Origin: Desulfuromonas sp. AOP6
Lineage (GTDB): Bacteria > Desulfobacterota > Desulfuromonadia > Desulfuromonadales > SZUA-540
Assembly (NCBI RefSeq): GCF_009731355.2
Contig: NZ_AP022810.1
Location: 310,001 to 374,000 of the forward strand
DNA length: 64,000 nucleotides
Direction of reading: 5' to 3'
The notes under the pieces are model-generated. The model was not told the origin of the DNA. It saw nothing but the letters and a program-made list of their open reading frames with translations, and ran no database searches. Positions 12,462-20,220 of this stretch are shown here, piece by piece (the first letter of the stretch is position 1; each line of letters opens with the position of its first letter). The translations under genes were made by a program, and so were the position numbers.

Positions 12462-14875
12462 GCCTTGAACTCACCTGTTTCGCTCTTGAGGTAGGCCATC
12501 TGCTCGGAGAGGGATTCGACGATGGCGTCCAGTTCGGCGGTGCGGTCGGCATTTTTCTCGGCAATGCGTCGGATGTCGGCTACGGCTTCCACCACCTGTC
12601 GGCTGCGGCTGGTCTGCTCCCGGGTGGCCGCATCGATGCGCTCGATCATGTCGCGGATGGTCTCCATGCCGGTGTTGATCTGCCGACTTCCCTTGGCCTG
12701 CTCCGAAGTGGCGTATTTACCCTGCAGGGCAATTTCCTTCATGGCCTCGGAGGCCTTGACCAGCTGTTTGCTGCCGGTAGACTGCTGGTCAACCGCCGTG
12801 GCAATCTGGTGAAGCATGGACGAAATCTGGTTGATCGAGGAGGTGATCTGATGGCTGCCCTTGGACTGTTCCTGCGTAGCCCGCACAATCCCGCGCACCT
12901 GCTCCATGGCCCTGGTGGTACTGAGGCGGATTTTTTCCAGCGCCTCGCTGGAGGTTCGGGAGCGGCCCACTTCTTCATGAACGCGTTGGCTGCCGGCCTG
13001 AATGGCCTGCACGGCCTCAGCTGTTCCCTGCTGCAGGTTGGTGATGATGCCGCCGATTTCCCGGGTGGAGACAGCCGTGCGGTCAGCCAGCTCGCGGATC
13101 TCGTCCGCGACCACGGCAAAGCCTTTGCCGTGCTCCCCGGCCTGGGCGGCAATGATGGCGGCGTTGAGGGCCAGCAGGCTGGTCTGGTCAGCGATCTCGT
13201 CGATGACGGTGAGAATGCGGCCGATGGCTTTGGACTGACTCCCCAGTTCTTCGATGGCTTCCCCGGCCCGGTCGACCGTCTGTCGTATGGCACCTATGCC
13301 ATCGATGGTTGCGTCGACGGCTTCCTTGCCCCGCTGGGCGTCGAGGGTGGCCTCTTCGGCCAGGCGGCTGGTCTGCTCGGCATTTTCATCAATTTCCTTG
13401 ATGGAGGCATCCAGCTCGGTGATGGACGACGCCGTCACTTCCGTGGAAGAGGACAGCATGTCAAGACTTTCGTTAATCTGCTGGTTTGAAACGGACATTT
13501 CATGGATAGAAGAGGAAACCTCCTCCACGGTGGTAAAAAGGGTTTCCATCTGCGTGGCAATCTGTTCGATGGTGGCGCTCAGCTCCAGGGTGGCGGAAGA
13601 GCTGCCTTCGACCCCGTCCACCAGGCTGCCGGTACTTTCGGCGATGCCGGCGATGGACTCATCGAAAGACTGGATGGCCCGGTGGGATTCGTCCAGGGAA
13701 TGAGCCTGGTTGACCGCATCTTCGCGGACTTGACGACTGGACTGCTGGATCTTGGTCGTGGCGTCGGCCAGGCCGTTGGCCACCTCGCGGGTACGGCGTA
13801 CCATCTGGGCCAGCCGGTCGACAAAATGATTAAAGGACGTCGCCAGCTCGCCAACCTCGTCCTGGCTGGTGACTTTCAGGTGGCGGGTAAGGTCCCCCTC
13901 GCCTTCGGATATCTCGCGCAGGCTCTGCACCAGTTGTCGCAGGGGGCGGACGATATTGTTGGAAAGACTTCTGCCGATGAGGGCGGCCAGGAGGGCCGCT
14001 ATAGCCAGAATGGCGAGTAGAATGAAGTTGGTGCGGGATTTGGCCTCGAACATGGAAGAGCTGTCCAAGGCCATGATGACGCCGCGTTTGGCGCCGCCGA
14101 AGGTGTTGATAAAAAGGGCATGCGGTGTGCCGTCTATGGTGCGGTAGCGTACCCGTTTAGGAATGACCTCCTGCGCATCGAACTGCTGCAGCTCGGCTTC
14201 CGTCGGCGCGAAAATGCGGGGATCAATCTCCCGGAGCCCCTCCAAGGTGGCCGAAAAAATACCCTTTTCATCAAAGAAGGCCACTTCGGCGTCGCTTAGG
14301 GACCTGATCTTCTTTGCATAGTGGTCATCGAGAAAGACCACACCAATAAGATGACCGAGGGGCGCTCCCGCCAGCTGTACAGGGCCGGCTGCCACGATGG
14401 CCAGACGGTCGTCAAAAAGCTGAATGCCCACCAGGGTGTCTCCTTCGAAGCTGCCTCTGATGATCGGATGGTCCCTTCGGTCGCCCGGGGTCTGGTCGGT
14501 GTCGCTCCCCTGACGCAGGAGAAGCTGTCCCTCCGCATCGAGGACTTCAATCAGATCAAAGTCAAATCGGTCCAGCGTCTCATTCAAAGCGCTATCCAGC
14601 TGTGCGGTATTGCCGGAAAAACCGGCAGAATAGACGGCATTGACCATGAGAGGATTTTGTGCCAGCAGTCTGATGTAATTGGCTTTTTCCGCTTGGGAAT
14701 AGGTGGTGCTCCGCTCAACAAAGCCCGAGACCACCTTGGCGCGGGATTGCATGTTCTTTTCAAGTTGCTGATTGTTGAGGCGGGCCGTAAAGGCAAGGGC
14801 TACGGCCACGGGAATAATGGCAAAAGCCAGCAGCGCAAGCAGGATTTTCCAGCGCAGGTTCAGCGATGAGAACAT
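12458..14875 (-). CDS. Methyl-accepting chemotaxis protein
   Basis: 805 residues. Membrane segment 1 (about 10-30), a periplasmic sensing region of about 250 residues that looks like a Cache-type PAS fold ([22 protein letters not shown]), membrane segment 2 (about 284-306), HAMP (about 307-360), and a long coiled-coil signalling domain. The hairpin tip is present as [24 protein letters not shown]; the usual AAIEAARAGE is changed to [10 protein letters not shown]. No C-terminal CheR-binding pentapeptide is visible. Receptors of this kind control CheA kinase activity. It is the first gene of a four-gene minus-strand run; CheX- and CheY-like genes lie just upstream. Confidence 0.93.
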
Positions 14876-14908
14876 AGGGGCACCCCGGGCGAGGATTGGT
14901 GAAGCGGA

Positions 14909-14942
14909 AAAAACGAATCCGGCAGCCGGTCAGGCTGCCGGG
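14909..14942 (-). terminator. Hairpin with T-run between CheX and chemoreceptor genes
   Basis: On the minus strand CCGGCAGCC pairs with GGCTGCCGG around a short loop, followed by ATTCGTTTTTT. It lies about 150 bases after the CheX stop and just before the chemoreceptor start. Confidence 0.55.
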
Positions 14943-15090
14943 TCGTCTGAGGGTTGAAATTTAGCACTTTCAGGATAGCCTGGCAACAAGTAATACGGCT
15001 AAGCTGTTGATCTGGCGTTATAGTTGTGGTCCACGGCAGGCTGGTTTGGCGACGGGCGAAGACGAGCGGCCGCTGGAGTCAGCCTGTTGT

Positions 15091-15954
15091 TCAGTCCATG
15101 ATAAGAACCTGCAGCACCACGGTATCGCCGCCGGCTAGAGCCATGGGGAAGCGCAGGCCGTAAGGTTCGTTGGGTGGCATCTGCAGCTGACTGCCGGAAA
15201 GGATCTCGGGCGGATGGATATCCAGCGGCTTGCCCATCTGGGCCGCTTTGGCGGCAATGTTTCCGCAGACGATGTTGATGAACTCCATGACGGAATCGAG
15301 CAGCACCTCTTCGGATTCGTTGTCGACCTCTTCCTCTTTGAGAATGGCCCGGGCCAGAATTTTCTGGACTTCTGCCGACACCGCCAGAATGTAGCGGCCG
15401 CTGGCCGCGCCGGAAAAGGCCATGGCAGCGACCACATCGGCCTGTGGCAGCTCTTTGCTTTCAAGGCAGTTGTCCGGACGCAGAGCGATATTGCCTACCC
15501 GTGCCAGCATCTTGAAGGAGAGGTCCGCCATGATCTCCAGCAGGGGACGGTGGGGCAGCGCCGCCGGGATGGCGACCGCATCGGCGGCGTAGGGAGCCTG
15601 ATCGGCCTTGAAAGCCTCCAGATAGCCTTCCAGGTCCGTTTCTTTGAGGCCGCCGACGCGAACAAGTGCCTCGCCCAGGTACAGATGACCGTTTTTCTGG
15701 CGCGTCAGGATCTGCTGCATCTGCTCTGGCGAGATCAGGCCGAGTTTGAGCGCCATGTCGCCGAAACGCAGGTCTTCCGAACGCTGGGCGTCATGGATCT
15801 TTTCCACCTGGGTTTCCGTGAGAAAACCCATGACCATGGCGATTTCACCGAATTTCAGATTGGTGGCTTCCTGCATCTCGATGGCTTTGAGCAGGTCCTC
15901 CCGTGTGATGGCCCCTTTTTCCATGAGGAACTGGCCGAAAAATTTTACCGCCAT
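15091..15954 (-). CDS. CheX-like phosphatase with N-terminal MshEN-like repeats
   Basis: 287 residues. The first about 115 residues hold four tandem helical repeats of roughly 31 residues with the pattern [FL]-G-x(3-5)-[LM]-x-x-G-x-[LI]-x(5)-[LMV]-x(4)-x-Q: FGQFLMEKGAIT, FGEIAMVMGFLT, FGDMALKLGLIS, LGEALVRVGGLK. This resembles the GspE/MshE N-terminal (MshEN) motif, which in MshE binds c-di-GMP. The C-terminal half matches the CheX/CheC fold (VVAAMAFSGAASGRYILAVS; EFINIVCGNIAAKA, with the conserved E-x-x-N), which dephosphorylates CheY-P. It is followed upstream by a CheY gene 51 bases away. c-di-GMP binding is inference. Confidence 0.8.
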   Translation of the reverse strand: MAVKFFGQFLMEKGAITREDLLKAIEMQEATNLKFGEIAMVMGFLTETQVEKIHDAQRSEDLRFGDMALKLGLISPEQMQQILTRQKNGHLYLGEALVRVGGLKETDLEGYLEAFKADQAPYAADAVAIPAALPHRPLLEIMADLSFKMLARVGNIALRPDNCLESKELPQADVVAAMAFSGAASGRYILAVSAEVQKILARAILKEEEVDNESEEVLLDSVMEFINIVCGNIAAKAAQMGKPLDIHPPEILSGSQLQMPPNEPYGLRFPMALAGGDTVVLQVLIMD

Positions 15955-16005
15955 TGTGAACTCCTTGGCTTGAGATGGAAATGTGGTAATGGCCGATGTA
16001 AAGGA

Positions 16006-16365
16006 TCAGAGGGCCTGCAGTACGCGCAGGACGCTCTCTTCGTTGAAAGGCTTGGAGATGACCTCGCGCGCCCCCAGCTTCAGGGCTTCCTGGTATTTAT
16101 CCCCAACGCCGCCGAGGGAGGTGACCATGACGACTTTGTAGCCGCGATTCATGGCCACCAGGGTGCGCAGGGCCGTGAGCCCATCCATGACCGGCATGTT
16201 CATATCCATGCAGATGATCTCCGGGTTTTCGGTCTGACTCATGCGGATGGCTTCCGCTCCATTTTTGGCATGACCGACCACCTGGAACGCGCCCGAGCCG
16301 GTGATTATCTTTTCCAGCTGGCGGGCCACGGAAATGCTGTCATCCACAATCAAGACACGTTTCAT
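16006..16365 (-). CDS. CheY-like response regulator
   Basis: 119 residues started at the ATG at 16365, preceded by GGAGG; an in-frame start seven codons earlier lacks a site. Receiver domain only: acidic pair DD (about residues 8-9), phosphorylation Asp in IICMDMNMPVMDG (about residue 53), Thr/Ser switch in VMVTSLGG, and Lys in VISKPFN. With no output domain it should work as a CheY-type diffusible switch. The gene immediately downstream encodes a CheX-type phosphatase that could be its partner; a chemoreceptor follows. Confidence 0.9.
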   Translation of the reverse strand: MKRVLIVDDSISVARQLEKIITGSGAFQVVGHAKNGAEAIRMSQTENPEIICMDMNMPVMDGLTALRTLVAMNRGYKVVMVTSLGGVGDKYQEALKLGAREVISKPFNEESVLRVLQAL

Positions 16366-16598
16366 TAGATGTACCTCCGTTGGCATAGTATGGAAGAGGG
16401 AATGATGAATATTGGCAGAGCCCTGAACTCCCCACCATGCACAGATCGTGCAAATTTCGACCGCGGAAACATAAAAAGAGATTAAGGTATAGAAGCCTTT
16501 GAAATCAAGATTATTAATGGTGCGGGTGATTTGAGTTAAAAGGGCAGGCGCGTATCTACTGTCGGGCCAGTGTGCCAGGTTACATAATTGGGAAATAA

Positions 16599-16631
16599 AA
16601 AAAGGCAGATCTTATCGACCTGCCTTTTCAA
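16599..16631 (-). terminator. Rho-independent terminator after first selenoprotein gene
   Basis: On the minus strand AAAGGCAG pairs with CTGCCTTT around an 11-base loop, followed by a run of T. It ends the selenoprotein gene whose stop is at 16648-16650. Confidence 0.85.
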
Positions 16632-16647
16632 ACGGGATAGGGGAAGC

Positions 16648-16935
16648 TCAGCAGCATCCGCCTTTTTCAGGAAGGATCGTGAACCCTTCTCCCATGGCGT
16701 TTTTGACGTAGTCTACGGTATGCCGGCGGGAGAGACTGCTGACCGATTCATCCATCAGCACGTCGAGCCCGTTGATCTTGCTGACCTCTTCATTCTCTTT
16801 AAGCTCATCCAGAGCCAGGCCCAGGCTGGGCCCGCCTCAGCCAAAACCTTGAATGACAACCCGCAGCATTTTGCCGGGGTTCTCCTGGAGCACCTTCTCC
16901 AGGACGTCCTTAGCCGAATCGGTGATGTCGATCAT
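16648..16935 (-). CDS. HesB/IscA-like selenoprotein (in-frame UGA)
   Basis: 95 residues if the in-frame TGA at 16837-16839 is read as selenocysteine. Residues 30-36 read GFG-U-GGP, followed by LGLALDE, the signature of HesB/IscA-like selenoproteins known from Geobacter-type bacteria, where U replaces a conserved Cys. The protein ends GGCC, analogous to the metal-binding C-x-C of IscA proteins. Four bases after the TGA, GGCCCA-GCC-TGGGCC forms a perfect six-base stem suitable as a bacterial SECIS. The frame is open on both sides of the TGA and a terminator follows the real stop. The role in Fe-S or other metal binding is family inference. A paralogue lies 113 bases upstream. Confidence 0.9.
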
Positions 16936-16997
16936 CTCTTACTCCTTGGTGTTGGGGTTGCTACTGCCCCATGACTAATATGTCGTTCGTCTAATGT

Positions 16998-17021
16998 CAA
17001 ATATGAATTATTTAATATTTG
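16998..17021. promoter_or_regulatory. AT-rich dyad upstream of first selenoprotein gene
   Basis: CAAATAT and ATATTTG are perfect inverted arms around ten bases, 63 bases before the start at 16935. A similar AT-rich dyad (TATATA-x8-TATATA) lies at about 17370-17389 before the second copy. Both could be operators of a metal-responsive regulator; this is inference. Confidence 0.35.
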
Positions 17022-17048
17022 TGGGCTGTCCGCGTCTTGGCCCAGGGG

Positions 17049-17339
17049 TCAGGCGCAGTGCTCTTGGCCGTAAATCGCTCTGACCACGAAACCTTTTCCA
17101 GTGCGGTTGTTGATATAGTCGATGACCTGGGCCTCGGCAAAGGGTTTGACGTTTTCATCTATCAGCACCTCGAGTCCACTGATCTGGCTGATTTCTTCCT
17201 TGTCTCTCGGCTCATCCAGAGCCAGCCCCAGTCGGGGCCCGCCTCAGCCAAAGCCATCGAAGGTGACGCGAAGATACTTGCCCGGGTTGTTGAGCAGAAT
17301 GTTTGTCAGTTTGTCTTGCGCCTTCTCGGTAATGGTCAT
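17049..17339 (-). CDS. HesB/IscA-like selenoprotein, second copy (in-frame UGA)
   Basis: 96 residues if the TGA at 17244-17246 is decoded as selenocysteine (residue 32). Residues 29-35 read GFG-U-GGP and are followed by LGLALDE, as in the downstream paralogue, while the rest has diverged (about half of positions differ), so the in-frame TGA has been kept under selection. A hairpin GCCCC-GACT-GGGGC lies directly after the TGA, in the same place as in the paralogue but with different bases. The C-terminus has a single Cys (EHCA) instead of GGCC. Start ATG follows CCGGAGG. Function in iron-sulfur or selenium-dependent redox chemistry is inferred. Confidence 0.9.
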
Positions 17340-17504
17340 TGGAAACCTCCGGAAGAGTTGAAAAGAAATATATATGGAAAAATATATAAGTGGAGGGGTG
17401 TTTGTCAAGGGAAAATATCGACAAAGCGGGGAGTTAGACGATAATTCCCGAAAAGATTTAAGTGTCGCGGGGAGTCAAGCTGATGGCGGGGGTGGCCAGC
17501 CGGG

Positions 17505-18317
17505 CTAAGAGGTCTGCTCCACCAGCAACCCCTCCTCAATCTCCCGGGGACCGGTGGTGTAGAGCGCATCGACAAAGGCGGTGAAGAAGCTGCCGGGTGC
17601 CTGGGCCGTGCGCCAGGCCAAGTCGCCGCAGAGGCCGTAAAAGGCGGTGGCGGCGGCGCTGGCCTTGAGCCGATCGTCGCTCTCCACGGCACAAAAGGCG
17701 GCGGTGACCGCCGACAGGCCGCAGCCCAGGCCGGTGACCCGGGTCATGATGGGCTGGCCGTTGCTGACGCGGAAGGTGCGTTCGCCGTCGGTGATGAGAT
17801 CCTTTTCGCCGGAGATGGAGAGGATGCAGCCGGTTTCGCGGGCCAGGGTGCGGGCGGCTTCGGCCACTTCAGGTGAGAGGGCGAGGGAGGAATCGACGCC
17901 CTTGGTGCGCACCTCGGCGTCGGCGAGGGAAAAGATCTCAGAGGCGTTGCCGCGCAGCACACTGACGGTGGCGTGATTCAGGATTTTCTTCACCGTGCCG
18001 GTGCGCAGGGAGGTGGCGCCGGCACCCACCGGGTCAAGGATGATGGGAATGTGATGATGGTTGGCGGTTTCGGCGGCCAGCAGCATGGATTCGACCCAGG
18101 CATCCTCCAGGGTGCCGATGTTCAGCACCAGGGCGCCGGCCAGGGCGGTCATCTCCTTGATCTCCTGCGGGCAGTGGGCCATAACGGGGGAGGCCCCGAG
18201 AGCCAGCAGAATATTCGCCGATGAATTCATCACCACAAAGTTGGTGATGTTGTGGATGAGGGGAGCGTTTTTTTTCACCCGGTCAAGCCGGTCAATGGTG
18301 TATGCTTTCATGTCCAT
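17505..18317 (-). CDS. thiM: Hydroxyethylthiazole kinase
   Basis: 270 residues, usual length for ThiM. Motifs include PLIHNITNFVVMN near the N-terminus, GASPVMAH, NIGTL, ILDPVGAGAT and the catalytic-site VTGLGCGLSA (Cys in place of the anion-hole loop typical of this ribokinase-like family). The enzyme phosphorylates 4-methyl-5-(2-hydroxyethyl)thiazole for thiamine salvage. It stands alone and is divergent from recQ with 76 bases between starts. AAGGAG lies ten bases before the ATG. I looked for a TPP riboswitch upstream and found no convincing one. Confidence 0.95.
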   Translation of the reverse strand: MDMKAYTIDRLDRVKKNAPLIHNITNFVVMNSSANILLALGASPVMAHCPQEIKEMTALAGALVLNIGTLEDAWVESMLLAAETANHHHIPIILDPVGAGATSLRTGTVKKILNHATVSVLRGNASEIFSLADAEVRTKGVDSSLALSPEVAEAARTLARETGCILSISGEKDLITDGERTFRVSNGQPIMTRVTGLGCGLSAVTAAFCAVESDDRLKASAAATAFYGLCGDLAWRTAQAPGSFFTAFVDALYTTGPREIEEGLLVEQTS

Positions 18318-18393
18318 GGGGCCAAAGCTCCTTGCTGATTCTCAGGAATGAGATGATGTACCTGCAGAAAATTACCATAAAACAAGTGGAAAG

Positions 18394-20220
18394 ATGAGGA
18401 TGAATTGTACCCCCCTTGAGACGCTGCGCAATGTTTTCGGCTACAGCGCCTTTCGCCCCTACCAGCAACCTATCGTCGACGCCCTGATTGCCGGCGAAGA
18501 CGCCTTTGTCCTTATGCCCACCGGCGGCGGCAAGTCTCTGTGCTATCAGATTCCGGCTCTGCATCGCCCCGGCGTGGCCATCGTGGTGTCGCCACTGATC
18601 TCTCTGATGAAAGATCAGGTTGACGCCCTGCGGGCCAACGGGGTCAGGACGGCCTTCTACAACTCCTCGCTCGGAGCGCCCGAAGCCCGGCAGGTTCTGG
18701 CCCAGCTGCATGCCGGCGACCTCGATCTCCTCTATGTCGCCCCGGAACGTCTGATGAGCGACGGCTTCATTGAGCGGCTGCAGTGTATTGAGCTGGCCCT
18801 CTTCGCCATCGATGAGGCCCACTGCGTCTCCCAGTGGGGGCATGATTTTCGCCCCGAATATGTGCAGCTCGGCCGTTTGCGCCAGCTCTTCCCCCAGGTC
18901 CCTCTCATTGCCCTGACTGCTACCGCCGACCCCCAGACCCGCACCGATATCCTGGCGCGCCTCGGGCTGCAGCGGGCGACCTGCTATGCCGCCGGCTTCG
19001 ACCGGCCCAACATCCGCTATACCGTCGTGGAGAAATCCCGTCCCGCCAACCAGCTGTTGACCTTCCTGCAGGGTCATGAAGGGGAGGCAGGCATCGTCTA
19101 CGCCCTCTCCCGCAAGCGGGTGGAAGAGGTGGCGGCTCGCCTGTGCGAAGCCGGCTTTCGGGCCGGGGCCTATCACGCCGGCCTGCCCGACGGCGAACGC
19201 CAGCGGGTACAGGAGGCCTTCCTGCGCGATGACCTGCAGATTGTCGTCGCTACCGTCGCCTTCGGCATGGGCATCGACAAGCCGAACGTGCGCTTCGTCG
19301 TCCATTACGACCTGCCCAAGAATATCGAAAGCTATTATCAGGAGACCGGCCGCGCCGGTCGCGACGGTCTGCCGGCGGAAGCCCTGCTGCTGTTTGGCTA
19401 TGGCGATATCGCCATCTCCCGCGGTCTTATCGAAAAGGGCGGCAACGAGGAGCAGAACCGCATCGAGCTGCACAAACTCAATTCCATGGTCGGCTTCGCC
19501 GAACCCCTGACCTGCCGGCGGCGGGTGCTGCTCGGCTACTTCGGCGAAAAGCTGGAAGAAGACTGCGGCAACTGCGACATCTGTCTCAATCCTCCCCAGC
19601 GCTACGACGCCACCGTCGACGCCCAGAAAGTCCTCTCCTGCGTCTACCGGGTGGGGCAGCGCTTCGGCATGGGGCATGTGGTCGATGTTCTGCGTGGCTC
19701 CGGCAACCAGCGCATCCAGACCCTCGGTCATGACCGCCTTTCCACTTACGGCATCGGCAGCGACAAAAGCCAGGAGTCCTGGGGGAGTCTCATCCGCCAG
19801 CTCGTTCACCTGGGCTATCTGAAGCAGGACGTGGGCAACTATTCGGTGCTCAAGCTGACCGAAGCCGCCCGACCGCTGCTGCGCGGGGGCGAGACGCTGA
19901 TCCTGCCGCTGCCCCGCGTGAAGGCCAAGGTGGCGAAGAAGCGCCTCTCCCGCAAAGTGACGGACCTCGATTACGATGAGGGGCTGTTCGAAGCCCTGCG
20001 CGTGCTGCGCAAACGCCTGGCCGATGAGGAGGGGGTGCCGCCCTTCGTGGTCTTCGGCGACCAGAGTCTGGCGGAGATGGCGGCCTTCCGGCCAAAGGAC
20101 GAGGAGGCGCTGCTCGCCATCAACGGGGTCGGCCGCCACAAGCTGCAGCGCTACGGTGCCGCTTTTCTGGCCGTTATCGCCGGAGAAGGGATGGACCATA
20201 GCGGCTCGACGGTGAGCTAG
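18394..20220 (+). CDS. recQ: ATP-dependent DNA helicase RecQ
   Basis: 608 residues. SF2 helicase motifs in order: Q motif region FRPYQ, Walker A MPTGGGKS (about 48-55), TATAD, DEAH within IDEAHCVSQWGHDFRPEY (about 141-158), YYQETGRAGRDG (motif VI). The RQC domain has the zinc cysteines CRRRVLLGYFGEKLEEDCGNC...C, and the C-terminal about 75 residues form an HRDC domain (YDEGLFEALRVLRKRLA). It unwinds DNA 3' to 5' in recombination and fork repair. The gene tail overlaps the convergent cupin gene by four bases. Confidence 0.97.
   Translation: MRMNCTPLETLRNVFGYSAFRPYQQPIVDALIAGEDAFVLMPTGGGKSLCYQIPALHRPGVAIVVSPLISLMKDQVDALRANGVRTAFYNSSLGAPEARQVLAQLHAGDLDLLYVAPERLMSDGFIERLQCIELALFAIDEAHCVSQWGHDFRPEYVQLGRLRQLFPQVPLIALTATADPQTRTDILARLGLQRATCYAAGFDRPNIRYTVVEKSRPANQLLTFLQGHEGEAGIVYALSRKRVEEVAARLCEAGFRAGAYHAGLPDGERQRVQEAFLRDDLQIVVATVAFGMGIDKPNVRFVVHYDLPKNIESYYQETGRAGRDGLPAEALLLFGYGDIAISRGLIEKGGNEEQNRIELHKLNSMVGFAEPLTCRRRVLLGYFGEKLEEDCGNCDICLNPPQRYDATVDAQKVLSCVYRVGQRFGMGHVVDVLRGSGNQRIQTLGHDRLSTYGIGSDKSQESWGSLIRQLVHLGYLKQDVGNYSVLKLTEAARPLLRGGETLILPLPRVKAKVAKKRLSRKVTDLDYDEGLFEALRVLRKRLADEEGVPPFVVFGDQSLAEMAAFRPKDEEALLAINGVGRHKLQRYGAAFLAVIAGEGMDHSGSTVS

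Follow-up and report, generated by a model that had tools for sequence, protein, structure and literature searches.

Paired HesB-like selenoprotein genes in Desulfuromonas sp. AOP6 and a predicted SECIS in the second hairpin behind each UGA

The HesB-like selenoprotein family goes back in the literature to 2005-2006 or earlier (PMC1088965, PMC1794560), and it is listed in Geobacter sulfurreducens, Desulfuromonas acetoxidans and Desulfovibrio vulgaris (PMC1794560). A disruption mutant of Methanococcus maripaludis was not impaired in nitrogen fixation (PMC11097638). A published model of the bacterial SECIS asks for a stem of 4-16 bp at 16-37 nt from the UGA, a loop of 3-9 nt with a G within its first two positions, and an energy of -7.5 kcal/mol or lower (PMC13188914). 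Here we analysed a window of 64,000 nt from Desulfuromonas sp. AOP6 (contig NZ_AP022810.1, positions 310,001 to 374,000), whose genome is a single contig of 3.27 Mb, and describe two HesB-like genes, A and B, each of which contains an in-frame TGA. Compared with the described family (TIGR01911, NF038090; PMC1794560, PMC13188914), their predicted products have the same length and fold and the same selenocysteine (Sec) in a UxGP-type motif at the position of IscA Cys35; they differ in that two Sec copies stand side by side, in scoring below both curated cut-offs, and in having short tails (CC or HCA) where those of the family are longer and Cys-rich. The family is already known; the present analysis adds a genus-specific Sec-Sec tandem, a corrected SECIS with strong covariation and a possible accessory hairpin. 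The features, numbered from the first letter of the window, are as follows.

16599..16629, minus strand: intrinsic terminator 3' of gene A
16648..16935, minus strand: gene A, HesB-like selenoprotein of 95 aa, Sec at residue 33, ending ..GGCC-TGA
16802..16816, minus strand: second hairpin (H2) of gene A, GGCUC-UGGAU-GAGCU
16817..16833, minus strand: first hairpin (H1) of gene A, candidate accessory hairpin
16837..16839, minus strand: Sec UGA codon of gene A
16995..17000, minus strand: TTGACA that probably belongs to a separate promoter for gene A, conserved in three species of the genus
17049..17339, minus strand: gene B, HesB-like selenoprotein of 96 aa, Sec at residue 32, ending ..EHCA-TGA
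17209..17223, minus strand: H2 of gene B, GGCUC-UGGAU-GAGCC
17224..17240, minus strand: H1 of gene B, candidate accessory hairpin
17244..17246, minus strand: Sec UGA codon of gene B
17381..17408, minus strand: TTGACA-16-TATATT, promoter-like site of gene B, with a nearly identical counterpart in a second species of the genus

With each internal TGA taken as Sec, gene A reads MIDITD...GFGUGGPSLGLALDE...GGCC and gene B reads MTITEK...GFGUGGPRLGLALDE...EHCA. The two products are 52% identical across 84 residues, have all core residues in common and share the motif GFG-UGA-GGP-x-LGLALDE. On the minus strand B lies upstream, followed by a gap of 113 nt and then A. An earlier note, made from the letters of this DNA, had described two frames with a TGA in each, the shared motif, good ribosome sites and a terminator after A. 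All of these are present; the ribosome sites, which we also judged good, are AAGGAG and CGGAGG, and the hairpin with a T run downstream of A recurs in genomes G001 and G002. The two genes seem to be served by separate promoters, and the promoter-like site of B, the conserved TTGACA before A and the terminator together give the pair the look of neighbours that are transcribed separately, not of a strict operon. An AT-rich element, TTATATATTTTTCCATATATATT (17350-17390), overlaps and follows the -10 of gene B and is identical in the second species; it is possibly an operator. An Rfam scan of positions 14000-20000 gave no real match. On the plus strand, open frames at 16588-16974 (128 aa) and 17019-17444 (141 aa) span both selenoprotein genes, and they are likewise open in many orthologues. 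These antisense frames could be mis-annotated as genes, and ordinary annotation would leave A and B called truncated, missed or replaced by an antisense frame.

The Sec machinery, whose absence the earlier note had named as an argument against recoding, was found in full. The genes selA, selB and selD are clustered together, selD itself carries one in-frame TGA, and selC is present as a tRNA-Sec whose score of 77 bits exceeds the gathering score of 47. Of the 136 genomes of the order, 57 contain a match. Every match above 110 bits in these 136 genomes contains a single in-frame TGA; Cys forms do not reach that score. Searches of the class and phylum added many further TGA forms. The same aligned position is TGA in 117 homologues and TGC or TGT in 27. 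A scan of contigs recovered Cys homologues only, because its query had been back-translated with Cys. Within the genus, the part of A behind the TGA has a dN/dS of 0.016-0.145 and that of B 0.24; by this comparison the frames show no decay beyond the TGA. The low dN/dS and the TGA kept in every strong match together exclude chance. The terminal TGA codons were also considered as a second Sec in a Cys-Sec tail. Among orthologues, however, the terminal stops are mixed (28 TGA, 18 TAA and 8 TAG; gene B of G002 ends with TAA) and nothing is conserved behind them, and we take them to be ordinary stops.

Two hairpins are predicted by RNAalifold behind the Sec UGA in an alignment of 54 orthologues. 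In positions numbered from the U of UGA, H2 pairs 24-28 with 34-38, extendable by 23-39, around the loop UGGAU at 29-33. In both genes it fits the bacterial model in its loop (5 nt, with G at position 2), stem (5 bp) and spacing (25 nt); against the energy limit of -7.5 kcal/mol, gene B lies at about -9.1 to -9.5, and gene A alone at -6.4. The Cys homologues serve as a control, since they carry a similar peptide without the need of a SECIS. All five core pairs of H2 are present in 113/117 Sec copies and in 1/27 Cys copies (Fisher 2e-23), and among 23 representatives less than 70% identical H2 retains 5.00 of 5 pairs against 3.22 in synonymous-codon shuffles, although both the Fisher and the shuffle values overstate significance, the sequences being related by descent. 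The contrast persists where the peptide is the same: with an identical LALDE, H2 is kept in 66/66 Sec copies and 1/9 Cys copies, and an Ala at codon 25-27 is written GCT in 84/84 Sec copies against 3/18 Cys copies. These counts take no account of shared ancestry, but the Sec/Cys contrast is very consistent.

The codon at 25-27 is NYT (GCT, ACT or GTT) in all 117 Sec sequences. In all 13 sequences with Val (GTT) here, Glu is encoded by GAA and not GAG, which preserves the pair 26-36; this pair is C-G in 104 sequences and U-A in 13, never mixed. Since these 13 were found both in the order and in genomes outside the class, the change probably arose in more than one event. Pairing at 25-37 is also kept (G-C in 88, A-U in 17 and G-U in 9 of 117), and amino-acid changes at both codons therefore go together. 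Pairs 24-38 and 25-37 covary, and four pairs of H2 have two-sided changes, with 27 such cells against 9.7 in shuffles. Judged from these comparisons, the decisive SECIS is H2, the second hairpin, and not the hairpin immediately behind the TGA. Taken together, the Sec and Cys homologues, tandem Sec/Cys pairs among them, allow constraint on the protein to be told apart from constraint on the RNA with unusual clarity, and they yield a well-defined SECIS for the HesB-like family. One Cys homologue, on a Deltaproteobacteria bacterium contig (L061:3001-3186), retains all five SECIS pairs and is possibly a recent Sec-to-Cys conversion with a SECIS remnant.

The stem-loop that the earlier note had placed right behind the TGA does exist in both genes, with stems of six and five bases (GGCCCA/TGGGCC and GCCCC/GGGGC); it corresponds to H1, 7-12 paired with 18-23, and is not the best SECIS candidate. 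H1 nevertheless seems to be selected within the order. There it retains 4.91 of 5 pairs against 3.74 in synonymous-codon shuffles of 23 representatives less than 70% identical (sd 0.14, maximum 4.22 of 2000), a difference whose significance is again overstated through shared descent, and columns 9-21 of H1, each the third position of a Gly codon, covary. Outside the order all five H1 pairs are found in only 20 of 63 Sec copies, while H2 stays intact, so H1 is not the universal SECIS; it looks like an accessory element. In many genomes of the order two adjacent hairpins are also predicted behind the Sec UGA of selD (L010:1531 and L205-L234, from the AOP6 genome and its relatives), at about 14-28 and then 29-46 with a GUN loop, a layout that resembles that of H1 and H2. 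Because many selD genes of the order fold such a pair, the first hairpin might serve Sec recoding in this order generally as an accessory, such as a pausing element or a folding guide. We propose tentatively, with rather less than even confidence, that the recoding signal of the order is a two-hairpin element in which a variable, covarying H1 stands between the UGA and a SelB-binding H2; no two-hairpin bacterial SECIS was found in the literature searched, whose coverage was incomplete.

In the account of A and B that we favour, SelB with its Sec-tRNA(Sec) binds H2, the apical loop UGGAU starting after 25 nt behind the UGA, and the UGA is read as selenocysteine. The isolated 45-nt RNA of gene A favours H1 together with pairing to the UGA, excluding H2. 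A ribosome standing at the UGA would cover roughly the first 12 nt, and H2 would thereby be freed from competition with H1; folding energies suggest that the ribosome would unwind the upstream H1 and leave H2 at the mRNA entrance.

The alternatives to this account are that the genes are not recoded at all, or that they are recoded by the other hairpin. That the genes are pseudogenes, or the TGAs sequencing errors, would agree with the end of each frame after about 32 codons when it is read without recoding. The TGA is kept, however, by all strong orthologues, the low dN/dS values lie behind it and the RNA is constrained at the codon level. We regard this possibility as already refuted by the comparative data and give it a negligible probability. 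That H1 is the SECIS, with H2 a by-product of the conserved LALDE peptide, would agree with the strength of H1 in both genes, its excess over the synonymous-codon null in the order and its covariation. This is very improbable, since the H1 loop begins 9 nt after the UGA, outside the range of 16-37, the H1 loops (TCTTT, AAACT) have no conserved G, and Cys homologues that share the LALDE peptide lose H2. H1 as the sole SECIS was rejected on its loop spacing, the missing loop G and its incomplete pairing in most Sec copies outside the order, and we retain H2 as the predicted SECIS.

The relation of A to B leaves a more even choice. All three genomes of the genus have the tandem pair, although in the third of them gene B is cut by the contig end and its UGA is not visible, and a Sec-Sec tandem was found only in this genus (3/136 genomes of the order). 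None was found in the literature searched either, with incomplete coverage. Tandem HesB-like pairs elsewhere in the phylum (L176-L180; G442, G390, G362, G620, G557) are likewise adjacent paralogues, but they combine a Sec and a Cys copy: the Sec copy keeps H2, whereas the Cys neighbour has GCC or other codons and, in the five G-numbered genomes, retains the SECIS pairing only in part or hardly at all. A and B both keep Sec and SECIS. A tree of 103 columns resolves each of them as one clade of the genus, but not how the two clades are related. The earlier note had suggested two specialised partners from the different C-termini, GGCC and EHCA. The tails do differ, but since C-termini vary throughout the family (C, CC, CGSSCGGSCG), this is weak evidence, and specialisation is only a possibility. 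That A and B are instead biochemically equivalent copies differing mainly in regulation comes close to an even chance: the free variation of the tails, the shared core residues and the separate conserved promoter-like sites all speak for it, whereas a comparison of the same two species gives an identity of 94% for A and of 77% for B, which suggests different constraint. On these identities A evolves more slowly than B.

As to the proteins themselves, the best profile matches of the two are to NF038090 (68.1 and 57.8 bits, cut-off 85), and TIGR01911 is matched at 45.5 and 39.7 bits (cut-off 66.35). The E-values are significant, and the relatives in the order likewise all fall short of the NF038090 cut-off; the NCBIfam cut-off serves for naming and does not mark a biological feature. 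AlphaFold predicts an IscA fold with confidence (pLDDT 88), for which the best Foldseek match is E. coli IscA (1r94, E 4.7e-6, TM 0.80), with Sec located at the Cys35 position. The earlier identification as HesB/IscA-like selenoproteins is borne out by the complete Sec machinery, the profile matches, the fold and the SECIS covariation, and we consider A and B almost certain to be paralogous HesB-like selenoprotein genes.

A-type carriers have a C-terminal Cys pattern of CxC. A and B share with IscA/SufA/ErpA (PF01521) the fold and the Cys35 position, but have Sec in place of that Cys and no C-terminal CxC: A ends in CC and B in HCA with a single Cys, while tails of orthologues range from one Cys to CGSSCGGSCG. 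Each product would be a small protein of IscA fold that carries Sec at the Cys35 position and one or two Cys at a flexible C-terminus. Most probably Sec and the terminal Cys bind iron or an Fe-S cluster or form a redox pair, like their counterparts in A-type carriers; the lack of CxC makes cluster binding uncertain, and by analogy we give a metal or cluster role about an even chance. A PF01521 search found no ordinary IscA/SufA/ErpA in this genome, while it finds members in E. coli, B. subtilis and other controls, and most relatives are likewise without one. The two selenoproteins are the only detectable IscA-fold proteins of the genome, which makes it well suited to questions about the role of selenium in the family. 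No neighbour gene is conserved across families of the order, and the neighbourhood names no functional partner. In family f8, family-specific neighbours resemble cytochrome bd genes by eye.
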